Origin: Actinomycetota bacterium
GTDB taxonomy: Bacteria; Actinomycetota; JAHEXW01
Reading direction: 5' to 3'
Length of the DNA stretch: 64,000 nt
Assembly: GCA_025355855.1 (NCBI GenBank)
Contig: JANXYU010000019.1
Span: forward strand, 1 to 64,000
Shown piece after piece: positions 54,751-62,459 of this stretch. Within the stretch, counting starts at the first letter, position 1; the number at the start of each line of letters is the position of its first letter. The translations under genes were made by a program, and so were the position numbers. Below the pieces are notes generated by a model, which saw only the letters and a list, made by a program, of their open reading frames with translations, ran no database searches and had not been told where the DNA came from.

Positions 54751-54763
54751 CAACCGAATAATG

Positions 54764-54863
54764 ACGGGAGCTGCGTTTTTAGGGCGGCTGAGAGGATGCG
54801 GGAAGTATTGTTTGGGCGCATCGACCGTAGTACTTGATCCGGGTAATGCCGGCGTTAAGGAAA
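54764..54863 (+). promoter_or_regulatory. TPP riboswitch (THI element)
   Basis: The conserved THI-box blocks appear in order: ACGGGAG at the 5' side of P1/P2, GGCTGAGAGG (pyrimidine sensor loop), then TTGATCCGGGTAATGCCGGC and AAGGAA at the 3' side. It senses thiamine pyrophosphate and controls the thiM-thiE-thiC-thiL-thiD operon that follows. The terminator 15 bases downstream indicates control by transcription termination. Confidence 0.95.
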
Positions 54864-54877
54864 AGATCACAAGAGGA

Positions 54878-54914
54878 CCTCATCCCGTAAGCAGGATGGG
54901 GTTTTTTCTTTTTG
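54878..54914 (+). terminator. Riboswitch-controlled terminator before thiM
   Basis: CCTCATCC (54878-54885) pairs with GGATGGGG (54894-54901; one G-U pair) and is followed by six T's, a C and further T's. It should form when TPP is bound. The thiM ribosome binding site GAGGAG lies immediately after it. Confidence 0.88.
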
Positions 54915-54924
54915 AGGAGCGATT

Positions 54925-55752
54925 ATGAATCAGGAGCAATGGGGAGCGAAAGCCGCGTCAATTTTAGGTCGAGTCCGCCGGGTTAAACCTTTAGTGCATC
55001 ACATTACCAATCTTGTCGTAATGAACGAGACGGCCAACATAACATTGTGCGCCGGGGGATTGCCGGTCATGGCACACGCCGACGCTGAGGTCGAGGAAAT
55101 GGTCGCGGCCGCCGGCGCGCTCGTTTTGAATATCGGAACGCTGACGCCGGAATTGGTCGAGACCATGATCAAGGCTGGCGCCAAGGCCAATAGTCTGGGT
55201 ATCCCCGTAGTGCTTGATCCTGTGGGAGCGGGCGCGACCCGGTTGCGGACCGAGAGTGCTACGAAGATACTGGAGCGGCTAGATGTGGCGATTGTCCGAG
55301 CCAATACGGCCGAAGCGGCCGTATTGGCCGGTCTGGACGCCAATATTCGGGGGGTTGAGTCGGTCGGTGGCGTCGCCCCGGACGTGGCAGCGGCCTCCTT
55401 GGCGCGTCGGTACGGTTGCGTGGCGGCGGTAACCGGAGAGGTTGACTTCATTAGCGACGGTGACAAAATGGTCACGGTTACAAACGGCAGCCCCATGATG
55501 GCAACCGTCACCGGTACGGGATGCATGGCCAGCGCGGTCGTCGCCCTGTTCGCCGCGGTTGAAGACGATAAGATAGAAGCAGCCGCCAGCGCACTCGCGG
55601 CCTACGGTCTGGCGGGCTTCGTCGCCGCGCACACGGCCAAAGGCCCCGGCACTTTTCATGTTGGTCTCTACGACGCCGTCGCCGGCCTGACGGAGGACGC
55701 GTTGCGCGTCGGCGCGCGCATCAAGGAAGAGCCAAGTAATGCGCCTGCCTGA
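54925..55752 (+). CDS. thiM: Hydroxyethylthiazole kinase
   Basis: Phosphorylates the thiazole alcohol for thiamine salvage (275 residues, ribokinase-like fold). Family motifs: PLVHHITNLVVMNETANITL at the substrate site, VVLDPVGAGATR, and the C-terminal ATP/anion-hole motif VTGTGCMASAVVA with its catalytic cysteine. First gene of the riboswitch-controlled operon; its end overlaps thiE by 14 bases. Confidence 0.95.
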   Translation: MNQEQWGAKAASILGRVRRVKPLVHHITNLVVMNETANITLCAGGLPVMAHADAEVEEMVAAAGALVLNIGTLTPELVETMIKAGAKANSLGIPVVLDPVGAGATRLRTESATKILERLDVAIVRANTAEAAVLAGLDANIRGVESVGGVAPDVAAASLARRYGCVAAVTGEVDFISDGDKMVTVTNGSPMMATVTGTGCMASAVVALFAAVEDDKIEAAASALAAYGLAGFVAAHTAKGPGTFHVGLYDAVAGLTEDALRVGARIKEEPSNAPA

Positions 55753-56368
55753 TCTAAGAGTCTATGTGATAACGGCTAATATGCCGGAGTTGGGGAGAAC
55801 GCACTGTGACGTCGCTACAGCGGCGGCGCGCGGCGGCGCGACCGTGATTCAATTTCGGGATAAAACCTTAGATGACCGAGCTTTCGCTGAGGAAGCCCGG
55901 CGTGTCGGCGAGATAGCGCAGGCGGCCGGCGCTCTCTTTATAGTTAATGACCGCGTCAACGCCGCTGTCTCGGTTGGGGCTGACGGCGTTCACATAGGAC
56001 AGACCGACGACTGCTACGAGGCTGTGCGGGAGATTGTCGGACCGAAGATGATTATCGGCGTGTCAGCGACCGATCTGACTGAAGCGAGACAAGCAGCCCA
56101 GGCAGGCGCCGACTATGTCGGATTCGGGCCAATCTTCGCTACGACGAGCAAGAATGACGCGGCGCCGCCAGTCGGGTTGGCAGGGTTGGCGAATATAGTT
56201 TCCGAGATCAAACAGCCGGTGGTAGCCATCGGCGGAATGAATAGAGATAATATCGGAGCGGTAATTGCCGCGGGAGCGGCGGGTGCCGCGCATGTCGCGG
56301 CCATCGCGGGAGCGACGAATATGGTCGCGGCGGTCCGTGCCTTACGACTAGCTTGGGAGAGCCAATGA
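55739..56368 (+). CDS. thiE: Thiamine-phosphate synthase
   Basis: TIM-barrel enzyme (209 residues) that couples HMP-pyrophosphate with thiazole phosphate to thiamine phosphate. Visible motifs: VIQFRDKTLDDRAF, FIVNDRVNAAVSVGADGVHI (pyrimidine and Mg2+ site), GADYVGFGPIFATTSK and VAIGGMN. Overlaps thiM and thiC at its two ends. Confidence 0.95.
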   Translation: MRLPDLRVYVITANMPELGRTHCDVATAAARGGATVIQFRDKTLDDRAFAEEARRVGEIAQAAGALFIVNDRVNAAVSVGADGVHIGQTDDCYEAVREIVGPKMIIGVSATDLTEARQAAQAGADYVGFGPIFATTSKNDAAPPVGLAGLANIVSEIKQPVVAIGGMNRDNIGAVIAAGAAGAAHVAAIAGATNMVAAVRALRLAWESQ

Positions 56369-57666
56369 GTTTGTTAGAAGAGCTGAAGGTTGGAAACATC
56401 ACATCAGATATTGAGCAGGTCGCTGCGGCCGAAAAGGTCGACGCGGTAAAACTGGCGGCTGATGTAGCTGCGGGGAAAACGGTTATCTGCAAAAGCCGTC
56501 GCCGGCCGAAGGTGACGCCGCTGGGGGTCGGTCTTGGTCTGCGCACTAAGGTAAACGCCAATATTGGCACATCGGATACCTTGAGCAGCATCGACGAGGA
56601 ACTGGAAAAGCTGGATATCGCAGTTCGCGCGGGTGCCGACGCTGTCATGGACCTATCGACCGGAGGAGACGTCTATGGCACTCTGGATAAGATTTTGGCG
56701 CATTCGACCGTTGCTATCGGGACAGTGCCGATCTATGGAGCCGCTGTCGCTGCCATCGAACGGCGCGGCAGCATAGTCGACATGACTGAGGATGATCTGT
56801 TTGAGGCGGTCGCGGAACATTGCCGTCGGGGCGCGGATTTCATCACGGTTCATTGCGGTGTGACTCGCGCGGCCGTTGACGCGTTATCAAAAGAGCGCCG
56901 GGTCACCGACGTCGTTAGCCGCGGCGGAGCTCTTTTAACCGGCTGGATGCTGCATAACGACCGGGAAAACCCTCTATACGCCAACTATGACCGCCTGCTG
57001 GCCATCGCCAAGGAATATGAGACTGTCCTCAGCCTGGGCGACGGCATGCGGCCGGGATGTATCGCCGACGCGACAGACCTCGCGCAGTTAACTGAGCTAA
57101 AGACCCTGGGTGAGCTGGCCCGACGGGCCAAATCGGCCGGAGTCCAGGCGATGATTGAAGGCCCCGGGCATGTGCCGTTGGATCAGATTGAGACGAATAT
57201 TAAACTGGAGAAGGAATATTGTGACGGCGCGCCGTTCTATGTTTTAGGACCACTGGTCACGGACGTGGCGCCGGGATACGACGAGATAACCGCCGCTATT
57301 GGCGGGGCCATTGCCGCGGCCGCCGGCGCTGACTTCTTATGTTATGTCACACCTCGGGAGCACCTAGGCCTGCCCACGGCGTCCGACGTTCATCGAGGCG
57401 TTATTGCCAGCCGGATTGCGGCGCATGCCGCTGACATTGTCAAAGGCGTGGCGGGGGCCGCCGACTGGGACCTGCAAATGGCGCGCGCTCGCAAAGCGTT
57501 GGATTGGGAAGGTCAGATCGCCCTGTCTATCGATCCGCCGCACGCCGCCGCGATGCGGGCTGAACGGATTCTGCAGGATGGGGAGACGTGCACGATGTGC
57601 GGCAAGCTGTGCGCGATGAAGGTCGTTGGCGAGTATCTGGATAGCCCGGGCGGAGAAACGTGTTAG
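56365..57666 (+). CDS. thiC: Phosphomethylpyrimidine synthase ThiC (short form)
   Basis: Radical-SAM enzyme that rearranges aminoimidazole ribotide to HMP phosphate. The 433 residues lack the long N-terminal extension of enterobacterial ThiC. NANIGTSD, MDLSTGGD, EGPGHVPLDQIE and YVTPREHLGLP are diagnostic. The C-terminal cluster site reads CTMCGKLCAMK, that is C-x2-C-x3-C, rather than the C-x2-C-x4-C of the long form. I chose ATG 56365 (ATGA overlap with thiE, GGGAGA upstream) over TTG 56353. Confidence 0.95.
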   Translation: MSLLEELKVGNITSDIEQVAAAEKVDAVKLAADVAAGKTVICKSRRRPKVTPLGVGLGLRTKVNANIGTSDTLSSIDEELEKLDIAVRAGADAVMDLSTGGDVYGTLDKILAHSTVAIGTVPIYGAAVAAIERRGSIVDMTEDDLFEAVAEHCRRGADFITVHCGVTRAAVDALSKERRVTDVVSRGGALLTGWMLHNDRENPLYANYDRLLAIAKEYETVLSLGDGMRPGCIADATDLAQLTELKTLGELARRAKSAGVQAMIEGPGHVPLDQIETNIKLEKEYCDGAPFYVLGPLVTDVAPGYDEITAAIGGAIAAAAGADFLCYVTPREHLGLPTASDVHRGVIASRIAAHAADIVKGVAGAADWDLQMARARKALDWEGQIALSIDPPHAAAMRAERILQDGETCTMCGKLCAMKVVGEYLDSPGGETC

Positions 57667-58673
57667 TCAAAGAGCTCGGCGAGTTCGGGCTGATCGACTA
57701 TATCGACGCACTGATCAGAAAAGCGGACGGCGGCTCCAAAAAAGTCGCGTTGGGCATCGGAGACGACTCTGCGGTCGTCGACGCGCCCCTCGGCGCCAAA
57801 ATGTTATTAACCACGGATACGATGGTCGAGAATGTCCATTTCAACAGGCGCTACGTCAAACCCGCGGATATCGGCTATAAAGCCATGGCAGTCAGCGTAA
57901 GCGATATCGCCGCTATGGCCGGAACCCCGGAATATGCCCTCGTGACGCTGGGCCTGACCGCGGAGGCCGAGGTAGAATTCGTCGCCGGCGTTTATCACGG
58001 CCTGATTGACGCGGCGAAAGCTTTTGGCATTTCAATAGTTGGCGGAGACATGACAAAATCAAACCGGTTTTTCGTCACCGTAGCGTTGACGGGACGGGCG
58101 GAAGCGGGGCTAACCAGGCGCCGCTCCGATGCTAAAGTCGGTGATGCGATCATGGTGACCGGTTCGTTGGGCGGATCAGCCGCGGCTCTTAAACTCTTGA
58201 AAGAAGGTGCAAAACCGATGCGCGGCTGGTTAGCGCACTTGGCTGCCCGGCACACGAGGCCGACGCCGCGGATAACGGAAGCGAGAGCGGCCGCCGCAGC
58301 GGGCGCTCGGGCGATGCAGGACATAAGCGATGGGTTACTGGCCGATCTTGCTCATATCTGTAGTGCGAGCGGCCTGGGCGCTCGCCTTGATTCAATGGCG
58401 GTTCCCGTATTCCCTGAAGCGGCGAAAGCCGGGTTTAAAGCAGTGGATGCGCAAAGACTGGCAATCACGGGGGGCGAGGACTACGAGCTGCTTTTTACGG
58501 CTCCTCCGGCCAAGGTCGACGCCATCATCGCGGCGATAGCCCAGGTCGGAGAGACACCCGTAACCGTTGTCGGCACCATGTTTTCGGGCGCAGCCGAAGT
58601 CATTGTCGCCGGCCATGAAGGAAAACCAATGGTCATGAAGAGGCGAGGCTATGACCACTTCCAGAACGGTTAA
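57660..58673 (+). CDS. thiL: Thiamine-monophosphate kinase
   Basis: Makes TPP from thiamine monophosphate (337 residues, PurM-like fold). GIGDDSAVVDAP and LTTDTMVENVHF bind metal and nucleotide; SVSDIAAMAGTPEYALVTLG, GGDMTKS and MQDISDGLLADL are characteristic. GTG start at 57660 overlaps the thiC stop. Its end overlaps thiD by 23 bases. Its product is the ligand of the upstream riboswitch. Confidence 0.94.
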   Translation: MLVKELGEFGLIDYIDALIRKADGGSKKVALGIGDDSAVVDAPLGAKMLLTTDTMVENVHFNRRYVKPADIGYKAMAVSVSDIAAMAGTPEYALVTLGLTAEAEVEFVAGVYHGLIDAAKAFGISIVGGDMTKSNRFFVTVALTGRAEAGLTRRRSDAKVGDAIMVTGSLGGSAAALKLLKEGAKPMRGWLAHLAARHTRPTPRITEARAAAAAGARAMQDISDGLLADLAHICSASGLGARLDSMAVPVFPEAAKAGFKAVDAQRLAITGGEDYELLFTAPPAKVDAIIAAIAQVGETPVTVVGTMFSGAAEVIVAGHEGKPMVMKRRGYDHFQNG

Positions 58674-59439
58674 GACATTCATCGCGGCAGGCGGCCTCGA
58701 TCCCAGCGCCGGCGCCGGATTAGCCGCCGATTTGGCGGCCGCGTGGAGCTTTGGCGTCATCGCGTTGCCAATCGCTACGGCCCTGACTGTCCAAAACTCT
58801 CAGCAAGCGAGAGCGTCATACCCGGTCAATGTGGCCGTCGTGAGGGAGCAACTGGAGACGGTCTATGAAGACTTTCAACCGTCAATACTAAAGACGGGCC
58901 TGGTCGGGTCGGCTTTATTAGCAGTCGCACTGGCCGAGTTTGCGAGCTCCCGCGGTTTGCGGCTAGTCGTCGATCCCGTCCTGCGCGCCTCGTCCGGGCT
59001 TGACCTGGCTGATCAGGCTGCCTTAGCGGCTATCAAGACTACTCTTGTCCCGAACGCATTTGTGTTAACCCCGAACGCGATGGAGGCGGCGTCGTTAACG
59101 GGTTTAACCGTCACATCCTTGGCTGAAGCCGCGGCGGCGGCCCGCCAACTTTACCAGACAGGCGTGTCTAACGTTCTCATAACGGGGGGACATCTCACAA
59201 CAGGCGACGAGGTAATCGACACACTGTATAATGAAAACGGCGTCAGCACCTTTAAGTCGCCGCGTTCGTGCGGCAATGTCAGAGGAACGGGTTGCGCTTT
59301 AGCGTCGGCGGTTGCGGCGCGGCTGGCGCTGGGCGACGACGTTACCGTGGCGATAATCGCGGCTCGCGCCTACGTGGCTCGAGTAATAGAGCAGGCCGTG
59401 CCAGCCGGACAAGGATCTCGCCAGGGTTTACCGGGGTAG
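58651..59439 (+). CDS. thiD: Hydroxymethylpyrimidine/phosphomethylpyrimidine kinase
   Basis: Phosphorylates HMP twice to HMP-PP for ThiE (262 residues, ribokinase-like). Motifs: FIAAGGLDPSAGAGLAADL, VDPVLRASSG, LTPNAMEAASLTG and RGTGCALASAVAARLA with the catalytic cysteine. The N-terminus reads GLDPSAGAG where GxDSSGGAG is usual, a small change in the substrate loop. Last gene of the thi operon. Confidence 0.93.
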   Translation: MTTSRTVKTFIAAGGLDPSAGAGLAADLAAAWSFGVIALPIATALTVQNSQQARASYPVNVAVVREQLETVYEDFQPSILKTGLVGSALLAVALAEFASSRGLRLVVDPVLRASSGLDLADQAALAAIKTTLVPNAFVLTPNAMEAASLTGLTVTSLAEAAAAARQLYQTGVSNVLITGGHLTTGDEVIDTLYNENGVSTFKSPRSCGNVRGTGCALASAVAARLALGDDVTVAIIAARAYVARVIEQAVPAGQGSRQGLPG

Positions 59440-59468: not shown

Positions 59469-60728
59469 ATGGCGGAAGAAACATACGACATCACTTTGTT
59501 CGTCGACGGCGGGTCGCGCGGCAATCCCGGTCCGGCCGGTATCGGAGCCGTTATCGTTCGAGACGGCCGCGCCCCGGCCACTGTATCCGAATTCATCGGG
59601 GAAGCGACCAACAACGAGGCCGAATATCAGGCCTTGATCGCCGGTCTCAAGAAAGCCGCCGAACTATCTTCCGGCAGCATTCATGTAAAGGCCGACAGCC
59701 TGCTAATGGTCAAACAGCTACTTGGACACTATAAGATAAAGAGCGATCAACTACGGCCTTTGCATGCGGAGGCGGCCGCCCTGCTCAAAACCTTTGCACG
59801 GGTCGGCATCGAGCATATACCTCGAGAGGCCAACGCAGCCGCTGATAAGCTGGTCAACGCGGCGCTGGATAAAGCCACCGGCAAGACAAAAAAGCTTAAA
59901 CCGGCGGCTAAGCCAATAGTCGAATCATCCGTGATCACGTTCCTTTCGGATTTTGGCCATCGGGACGCCTGGACCGCTATCGTGAAAAATACAATGAAAA
60001 ATATCAACCCGCATGCTGATGTCCTAAGTATCACCCACGACATTGAGTCCTTTGATGTCCGCCAAGGCGCCTTCGTGTTGGAAACAGCAGTCGCGGATAT
60101 AAACGCGGCCGTCCATCTAGCGGTTGTTGACCCCGCTGTAGGAGCCGGCCGGGACCTGATCATCCAAACCAAACGGGGCGATTACCTGGTAGGTCCGGAT
60201 AACGGCTTGTTGCTGCCGGCGGCAACCCGTTTAGGGGGCATTGAGTCCGCGTACGTGATACGAGCCGACGACTCGGCCGCGCCGCCCTGTCCGACATTTC
60301 ACGCGCGTGACATATTCGCTTTAGCAGCCGCCGCTCTGGCGGCTGGCGAGGAACCCGGCCTGTTGGCCGACCTTATCGATCCCGTTTCGCTGGCGCCTGC
60401 TCCTTACGGTTACGCGACAGTCGTCGACGGCCAGATAGACGTGGAAATAATTAACATTGACGGATTTGGCACACTGCGCTTAAACGTTGAGGAAGAGGTG
60501 GCCCAATCAGCCGGATATTCGCCGCCGGCGCTCGTCGGGCTTACCTTGGAGGACGCACAACTAGAGCTAAACCTGGGCCGGACATTTACTGACGTAGGGC
60601 AAAACGAAATGCTGTTGCTTTTCGACTCGAGCGGGTATCTTTGCGTCGCTGTGAACCGCGGTTCGGCGGCGGCCGTTCTCAACGCGACTGCCGGAGACAA
60701 AGCGACGTTGCGGCTACTTAAATCCTAG
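59469..60728 (+). CDS. Fusion of ribonuclease HI domain and SAM hydroxide adenosyltransferase
   Basis: A 419-residue chimera. Residues 1-145 are a type I RNase H: DGGSRGNPGPAG, TNNEAEYQALIAGL, HVKADSLLMV and EANAAADKLVNAAL supply the D-E-D-D active site. After a Lys/Pro linker, residues 155-419 match the SAM hydroxide adenosyltransferase (DUF62, chlorinase/fluorinase) family: ITFLSDFGHRDAW, VVDPAVGAGRD, VGPDNGLLLPA and FHARDIFALAAA. The second half should split SAM to adenosine and methionine. A ribosome binding site GAAAGGC is present. I know of no standard fusion of these two. Confidence 0.85.
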   Translation: MAEETYDITLFVDGGSRGNPGPAGIGAVIVRDGRAPATVSEFIGEATNNEAEYQALIAGLKKAAELSSGSIHVKADSLLMVKQLLGHYKIKSDQLRPLHAEAAALLKTFARVGIEHIPREANAAADKLVNAALDKATGKTKKLKPAAKPIVESSVITFLSDFGHRDAWTAIVKNTMKNINPHADVLSITHDIESFDVRQGAFVLETAVADINAAVHLAVVDPAVGAGRDLIIQTKRGDYLVGPDNGLLLPAATRLGGIESAYVIRADDSAAPPCPTFHARDIFALAAAALAAGEEPGLLADLIDPVSLAPAPYGYATVVDGQIDVEIINIDGFGTLRLNVEEEVAQSAGYSPPALVGLTLEDAQLELNLGRTFTDVGQNEMLLLFDSSGYLCVAVNRGSAAAVLNATAGDKATLRLLKS

Positions 60729-60744
60729 GTACGGAGGCTGACTT

Positions 60745-61632
60745 ATGGATGCCGATCTGGACCGCTATCTGGACTACCTAAAGAGTCAGCATCGCTATTC
60801 GCCCCGGACAGTCGAAGCGTTCGGTCGAGACATCAAAACCTTCTTAAGCTTTTTTAAAAAAAACGGGACAGCCGACTTGGCCGAGGTCGACTATCGGCTG
60901 TTGCGCCGCTATCTGGCATATTGTGACACCCTCCGCCTGCAAAAAACGACAATCGCGAGACGGTTGTCTGCCATAAGGTCATTTCTGCGCTTTCTGTGCA
61001 ATGAGGGCTCGCTCGAATCAAACGCCGCGCTTCTGGTAAGCTTCCCGAAGAGCGGCTCGACGCTGCCCAAAGTCTTGAGCCGTGACGAGGTTGAGCGCCT
61101 GTTGGCCAAACCGCCGATCGAGCTTAGAGACGGTCTGCGTAACCGGGCGATCATGGAGCTGCTCTACGCTACCGGATTACGGGTCAGCGAACTCGCCGGA
61201 TTGTCTTTGTCTGATATCGATTTTCCCGCTCGCGAAATTCGAATAATCGGTAAAGGGGACAAAGAAAGAATCGTATTTTTTACGCCGGTAGCCGATCGTG
61301 CTTTGGCCGAATATCTAGCCATAGGCCGGGTCGACCAAGGGGAAGACAAGTCAGGCGGCGCAGTCTTTCTCAATGATCGCGCCCGGCGCTTGAGTGTGCG
61401 CAGTATCCAGAATGTCGTTGACCGGGCGGCCGGGGCAGGTCGCGTGGGGCGTCATGTCAGCCCTCATATGCTGCGCCATTCCTTCGCGACTCATCTGCTG
61501 GAGGAGGGGGCTGATTTGCGAACTATCCAGGAGCTTTTAGGCCATGCGGATTTGTCGACTACGCAGATTTACACCCACCTGGACAAAAAGCGTCTGAAGG
61601 CCGTCTATCGGCAGGCGCACCCCCGCGCTTAG
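60745..61632 (+). CDS. xerC: Tyrosine recombinase XerC
   Basis: A 295-residue Xer recombinase: core-binding domain (YLKSQHRYSPRTVEAFGRDI), then catalytic residues Arg in GLRVSELAG, HMLRHSFATHLL, LGHADLSTTQIYTHL with the nucleophile Tyr. It is the second Xer protein (XerD at 24 kb), the pair needed for dif recombination. Position before the sigma factor and rpsB is typical for xerC in Gram-positives. ACGGAGGC lies before the ATG. Confidence 0.92.
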   Translation: MDADLDRYLDYLKSQHRYSPRTVEAFGRDIKTFLSFFKKNGTADLAEVDYRLLRRYLAYCDTLRLQKTTIARRLSAIRSFLRFLCNEGSLESNAALLVSFPKSGSTLPKVLSRDEVERLLAKPPIELRDGLRNRAIMELLYATGLRVSELAGLSLSDIDFPAREIRIIGKGDKERIVFFTPVADRALAEYLAIGRVDQGEDKSGGAVFLNDRARRLSVRSIQNVVDRAAGAGRVGRHVSPHMLRHSFATHLLEEGADLRTIQELLGHADLSTTQIYTHLDKKRLKAVYRQAHPRA

Positions 61633-61676: not shown

Positions 61677-62459
61677 ATGAGCCAAACCCCGGCGGATGAA
61701 CACAGCAAAATAATGGAGCTCTGGCGCCAATATAAAGAAGTAGGCACCCAGGAGCTGCGAGACAAACTTATCCTTCATTACGCGCCACTCGTGAAGTATG
61801 TCGCCGGGCGGCTGTACGTCAAAGTTCCCTCGAATGTCGATCACGGAGACCTGGTCAGCTCCGGTATATTTGGTTTGATTGACGCGATCGACAAGTTCGA
61901 TCTCTCCAAGAATATCAAATTTGAGACGTACGCTATTGCCCGTATCAAGGGTGCCATAATCGACGAACTGCGCGCTCTTGACTGGATCCCGCGCTCGGTA
62001 CGTTTTAAAGCCAAAGAATTGGAACGGGCCTACCAAGAGCTCGAAGGCCGTCTAAAGCGCTCGCCAACAGATGAGGAAGTCTGCAAAGAGCTAGGCATTA
62101 CAAAAGATAAACTGCACGACACGATCACGCAGATCGGCAACACCGCAGTCGTCGCGCTCGACGACACTTTCACGGTCGGTAAAGACATGGATGGACGGGT
62201 CGGCTTGATAGACATCATTGAGGACGAGAGCAGCGCCGAACCCGCCGCGACGTTCGAGATTGAAGAGATGAAAACGTTGTTGGCTCAATCTATCGATCGC
62301 TTGCCCGAGCGGGAAAAAACCGTAGTCGCACTGTATTACTACGAAGGCTTGACATTGAAGGAGATCGGCGAAGTCCTCGGGGTCACTGAATCCCGTGTTT
62401 CCCAGATGCACACCAAGGCAATTCTGCAGCTCAAGGCCAAACTCAAGCAATTCGTGTAA
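61677..62459 (+). CDS. whiG: FliA/WhiG family RNA polymerase sigma factor
   Basis: A 260-residue sigma-28-type factor. Region 2 ([20 protein letters not shown], then [19 protein letters not shown]) binds core and the -10; [20 protein letters not shown] is region 3, and region 4 has the helix-turn-helix [20 protein letters not shown]. In actinobacteria homologues are WhiG; in flagellates FliA. No flagellar gene is in the window, and the xerC-whiG-rpsB order matches the actinobacterial setting. Confidence 0.93.

Follow-up and report, generated by a model that had tools for sequence, protein, structure and literature searches.

Type 1 RNases H hold their metal ions with four acidic residues (D-E-D-D). 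In Actinomycetota, an N-terminal RNase HI is known to be joined to a C-terminal histidine phosphatase, as in the RNase HI-CobC/acid phosphatase proteins Rv2228c, MSMEG_4305 and SCO2299 (PRK07238). The two domains of MSMEG_4305, from Mycolicibacterium smegmatis, are separable in vivo; removal of CobC barely changed growth, fitness or the level of hybrids, and the authors regard drift as the cause of the fusion (PMC7466739). This organism does not survive the loss of both type 1 RNase H enzymes (PMC4429107). The DUF62 (SAM_HAT) enzymes hydrolyze SAM and prefer its (R,S) epimer (PMC12120602; PMC10491745). One of them is a trimer, and the authors of that study question whether hydrolyzing (R,S)-SAM is what DUF62 enzymes do physiologically (PMC12120602). 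The His-Arg-Asp triad of the family has been described as strictly conserved (PMC10491745).

We analyzed a stretch of 64,000 nucleotides (the window) from a genome of the phylum Actinomycetota (G000). A preliminary description of the window, made from the sequence alone, had claimed that RNase HI and a SAM enzyme are joined in one open frame and that both halves keep their signature motifs. We found that both claims were right. Positions 59469-60728 (+ strand) form a single uninterrupted frame of 419 codons that starts with ATG and encodes 419 amino acids, with a purine-rich gcgaaaggc directly 5' of the ATG. The quoted motifs are present in the protein. By Pfam, RNase HI occupies residues 12-132 and the two SAM_HAT (DUF62) domains residues 156-411, with a variable linker of ~18 residues between the halves. 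The parts of the protein are as follows:

59469-59876, + strand, RNase HI half, residues 1-136 (Pfam RVT_3/RNase_H), with ligands D13, E52, D76 and D126 kept and AlphaFold2 pLDDT mostly >90
59877-59930, + strand, linker, residues 137-154, lysine-rich and variable in sequence and length (half-by-half identity comparison)
59931-60356, + strand, SAM_HAT N-terminal domain (Pfam PF01887), with the triad D221, R228 and H278 (PH0463 alignment)
60444-60701, + strand, SAM_HAT C-terminal domain (Pfam PF20257)

The RVT_3 model matched residues 12-132 (E 6.7e-22, 78.1 bits, cut-off 21.6), and the RNase_H model scored 43.3 bits (cut-off 25.8). SAM_HAT_N (residues 156-296, E 1.4e-40, 138.8 bits) and SAM_HAT_C (residues 326-411, E 1.4e-15, 57.8 bits) both exceeded their curated cut-offs. 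In an AlphaFold2 model of the whole fusion (mean pLDDT 66, pTM 0.38), the RNase H half was confident and the SAM half was poor, because just three aligned rows cover the SAM half. Contacts between the halves are therefore unreadable from this model.

Each half was compared with its described relatives. The four acidic residues of the RNase H half are invariant in a 19-row RNase HI alignment and in all three of the fusions described below. The best PDB match of this half is 3hst (Rv2228c), and other RNases HI also match. Identity as the bifunctional RNase H/acid phosphatase (PRK07238) was ruled out: the match covers residues 12-142 only, its 145.7 bits fall below the equivalog cut-off of 326, and there is no His_Phos_1 domain. 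Among solved structures, the SAM half is closest to DUF62 enzymes and to SalL, a related chlorinase. D221, R228 and H278 align with D68, R75 and H127 of PH0463, which we take to be the numbering of its triad; the register was counted by hand from the alignment. A SAM-dependent halogenase (fluorinase, SalL) was rejected, as all three residues are intact where SalL has others (e.g. Tyr70 and Gly131). The window protein shares both domains and the D-R-H triad with the DUF62 (R)-SAM hydrolases PH0463 and Salinispora StDUF62 (PF01887 and PF20257), and differs from them in its N-terminal RNase HI. It does not reach the NCBIfam equivalogs for (R)-SAM hydrolases (130.8 vs 350 bits for NF058624; 117.9 vs 470 for NF053629), whose cut-offs seem to be tuned to close subfamilies.

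The window fusion resembles the RNase HI-CobC proteins in several respects. The N-terminal RNase HI is of the same family, a C-terminal small-molecule enzyme follows across a variable linker, and each fusion is confined to one branch of the Actinomycetota (PMC7466739). The differences are in the partner (SAM_HAT rather than a histidine phosphatase), in the linker (~18 residues vs 36-55; PMC7466739) and in the setting, which is a thiamin cluster for the window fusion. An RNase HI of this family also has a C-terminal histidine phosphatase (Pfam) in a member of the Bifidobacteriaceae (L101). In two members of the Coriobacteriia (L045:6001-7083 and L052:2166-3128), it is followed by a 6-pyruvoyl tetrahydropterin synthase-like (QueD-like, PTPS) domain, an RNase H-PTPS architecture for which we found no paper. 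These proteins are like the window fusion in that a metabolic enzyme follows an N-terminal RNase HI of the same family, and differ in their PTPS-like partner and their long, low-complexity linker. SAM_HAT is a third C-terminal partner of the same actinobacterial RNase HI, after CobC and the PTPS-like enzyme. Proteins in which a metabolic enzyme is attached to the C-terminal side of an actinobacterial RNase HI are a known kind; as far as we know, SAM_HAT as the partner and a thiamin cluster as the setting are new. The preliminary description had allowed that the combination might already be well described. We found no description of an RNase H plus SAM_HAT architecture in open-access papers, and the fusion is apparently unreported, although the combination may already be on record in automatic domain databases.

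All three genomes of the class have the fusion in full length, and at the same locus. The protein of G001, which belongs to the genus of the window genome, is 81% identical to the window protein, and that of G002, from a different family, is 46% identical. Neither is interrupted by a stop or frameshift, and the neighboring genes are common to the three genomes, except for one additional gene in G002. Among the matches listed from 397 sampled genomes of the phylum, there was no further full-length match, and the strongest others, in order of score, span the SAM half only. A pattern scan of a named genome collection found 134 relatives, and two of the best 80, nzgw113 and DeMMO3_18 (this class), reached SAM_HAT; the scan was seeded with two RNase H peptides, and it could overlook a fusion that arose independently from another RNase H. 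RNase HI and SAM_HAT are separate genes on different contigs in each of the 13 closest outgroups examined, and in all 13 the RNase HI gene adjoins a zinc-ribbon gene. The fusion is real and specific to this clade.

The source assemblies all appear to be metagenome-assembled, and a sequencing or assembly error could in principle have joined two genes. This explanation is already refuted, and we give it essentially no weight, because three different assemblies have the same junction and the same neighbors at 46-81% protein identity. The preliminary description had itself named an error in a single genome, and separate genes in related genomes, as findings that would count against a fusion. The first is excluded by the intact frames of G001 and G002. 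The second holds only outside the class, in the 13 outgroups; within the class the genes are fused.

The fusion lies at the end of a thiamin gene cluster headed by a TPP riboswitch. The features of the cluster and its downstream neighbor are as follows:

54754-54878, + strand, TPP riboswitch aptamer that opens the cluster (Rfam RF00059, E 8.6e-08; at 46.7 bits it falls short of the family's cut-off, 54.3)
54872-54907, + strand, hairpin resembling an intrinsic terminator, between riboswitch and thiM (14-pair stem, then a T-run; consensus match only)
54925-55752, + strand, thiM-type hydroxyethylthiazole kinase (Pfam HK)
55739-56368, + strand, thiE (Pfam TMP-TENI)
56353-57666, + strand, thiC, radical-SAM HMP-P synthase (Pfam ThiC_Rad_SAM)
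57660-58673, + strand, thiL-like gene, AIRS fold (Pfam AIRS, AIRS_C)
58651-59439, + strand, thiD, directly upstream of the fusion with a 29 bp gap (Pfam Phos_pyr_kin)
60745-61632, + strand, xerC-type tyrosine recombinase, 16 bp downstream of the fusion (Pfam Phage_integrase)

The order in the window is therefore TPP riboswitch, hairpin, thiM, thiE, thiC, thiL, thiD, 29 bp, fusion, 16 bp, xerC, sigma factor. Despite its score, the window riboswitch retains the conserved core, and riboswitches above the Rfam cut-off are found at the equivalent place in G002 and in G275, a genome from another family of the phylum. No terminator-like or promoter-like site was seen on the + strand in the interval between thiD and the fusion. 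Because of this and the gene spacing, we infer that riboswitch control probably reaches the fusion.

Two other gene orders suggest how the fusion was formed. In G002 the order is TPP riboswitch, thiM, thiE, thiC, thiL, thiD, zinc-ribbon gene, fusion, xerC; the zinc-ribbon protein has a CT398-like coiled coil and Zn_ribbon_9 (Pfam), and its gene overlaps the fusion by 4 bp. The xerC-type recombinase adjoins the fusion in G001 as well. In G275 the order is TPP riboswitch, thiM, thiE, thiC, thiD, free SAM_HAT, all separate genes, with a gap of 2 bp between thiD and SAM_HAT and no RNase H there. Because of these gene orders, the fusion can be explained as the joining of two neighboring genes in a thiamin cluster. 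SAM_HAT would already have been behind thiD at the end of the riboswitch-led cluster, as in G275. The usual pair of a CT398-like zinc-ribbon gene and RNase HI would then have been inserted between thiD and SAM_HAT. Loss of the RNase HI stop codon would have joined it to SAM_HAT, with the zinc-ribbon gene retained in G002, and that gene would have been lost later in the genus of the window genome. In G000, a search with a single diverged query sequence, a weak test, gave no match to the zinc-ribbon gene elsewhere. We infer this order of events from gene orders only, and the gene orders of living lineages suggest each of its steps.

Trees of the two halves neither demonstrate nor reject a single origin. 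The three fusions were together in 0% of 200 bootstraps of the RNase HI tree, and a single fusion clade was not rejected for either the RNase half (p-AU 0.20) or the SAM half (p-AU 0.47). Because the RNase HI tree splits the fusions, a domain replacement in one lineage, or a second fusion event, is possible. In that tree, built on 131 columns, the G002 RNase HI is placed, with weak support, beside free RNases HI from other families and not with that of the window.

We favor the reading that this class-specific fusion combines two housekeeping enzymes, both intact and working independently, and that it was formed as proposed above, with co-expression as its main consequence; we put the probability of this reading at roughly 0.7. 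The N-terminal half would be the cell's type 1 RNase H, acting on primers and R-loops by cutting the RNA strand of RNA-DNA hybrids. The C-terminal half would be a DUF62 enzyme that probably turns the off-pathway (R,S)-SAM epimer into adenosine and methionine. The preliminary description had called it a SAM-hydrolyzing enzyme; the family assignment stands, and (R,S)-SAM hydrolase is a better description than a general consumer of SAM (PMC12120602; PMC10491745). That two enzymes would act independently on one chain is suggested because the CobC analog is separable and DUF62 is known to hydrolyze SAM. Two working enzymes seem to have been joined by chance, with no new function gained, and a neutral or co-expression fusion is most likely.

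One alternative is that the two activities are coupled. SAM, (R,S)-SAM or adenosine bound in the C-terminal half could regulate RNase H, or the SAM half could bring RNase H to places where RNA or nucleic acid is methylated. Each of the three genomes of the class, which span two families, has kept the fusion, and its persistence at 46% identity would be in keeping with selection that favors it. It is also the only match to either half at E<=1e-3 in the window genome, which is 91% complete; no second RNase HI or SAM_HAT was found there at this threshold, and RNase HII is present on contig C16. In addition, both halves are clearly under purifying selection, as judged from the sequences of G000 and G001: dN/dS (Nei-Gojobori) was ~0.05 in the RNase H half, and in the SAM half it was ~0.10; both ratios are rough because synonymous sites are near saturation. 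These observations would fit coupling, but the linker between the halves is short, lysine-rich and variable (56% identity between G000 and G001, 31% between G000 and G002). Unrelated partners are found on the same RNase HI family elsewhere, the halves of the CobC analog can be separated in vivo (PMC7466739), and the gene order offers a simple, non-functional origin. We consider coupling unlikely. The preliminary description had proposed that the fusion ties the level of SAM or adenosine to RNA processing, or that one half serves as a targeting module; the variable linker, the gene order and the CobC analog leave both proposals unsupported. In a more specific version, removal of RNA-DNA hybrids would respond to SAM or thiamin status, with the cell's only RNase HI and only SAM hydrolase on one riboswitch-controlled polypeptide and RNase H modulated by binding of the SAM epimer or adenosine in the SAM half; we regard this as very doubtful. 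We know of no earlier link between SAM and RNase H. If the halves communicate, this would be the first such link, and current evidence does not favor communication.

It is also conceivable that the SAM half is non-enzymatic or changed in substrate and now acts as an oligomerization or stability module for RNase HI. A DUF62 enzyme does form trimers (PMC12120602), and the SAM half evolves faster (79% identity between G000 and G001, 45% between G000 and G002) than the RNase H half (89% and 51%), with the SAM C-terminal domain fastest. Moreover, the triad His is replaced by Asn in the G002 fusion (L003 1480-2712, - strand), unlike in PH0463 and StDUF62, and the SAM half of G002 may be altered. Catalytic residues are otherwise kept: the window and G001 proteins retain D, R and H. 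In 35 SAM_HATs from the phylum, Asp and Arg never vary, and the His position is H in 26, Q in 5, D in 2, E in 1 and N in 1. Because free-standing SAM_HATs are among the variants (Gln, Asp or Glu), a change of the triad His is no mark of fusion. A role as a module thus seems rather improbable. The residues seen at this position in the phylum contrast with the strict conservation claimed for the triad (PMC10491745).

Finally, the halves could be made separately, by internal initiation or by proteolysis of the lysine-rich linker, so that the apparent fusion is a pair of overlapping genes. A GTG at residue 155 in the window and G001 is at the place where free SAM_HATs start, but it is without a clear Shine-Dalgarno sequence, and the G002 junction codons beside the SAM domain (AAC CGG ATC ACT) include no start codon. 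We think it highly improbable that the protein is made in two pieces.

With the halves taken as independent enzymes, the sole coupling with an independent rationale would be that of SAM_HAT with the radical-SAM enzyme ThiC, encoded in the same riboswitch-led cluster. DUF62, whose physiological role is debated, is placed with ThiC in a TPP-riboswitch cluster both as a free gene (G275) and fused. From this placement a testable hypothesis can be derived: DUF62 may support radical-SAM chemistry. A search for literature tying DUF62 to thiamin gave nothing relevant. In three related Actinomycetota (L120, L124 and L129), a free-standing SAM_HAT lies a few kb from ribD-ribE-ribBA, so the association of SAM_HAT with thiamin genes is not general. 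The linkages to rib and thi genes hint at cofactor-biosynthesis contexts for DUF62.

Downstream of the fusion, between xerC and rpsB, the window encodes an alternative sigma factor (61677-62459) with sigma-70 regions 2, 3 and 4. It is 97-98% identical in G001 and ~85% identical in G002, and is more conserved than thiD, the fusion or xerC.
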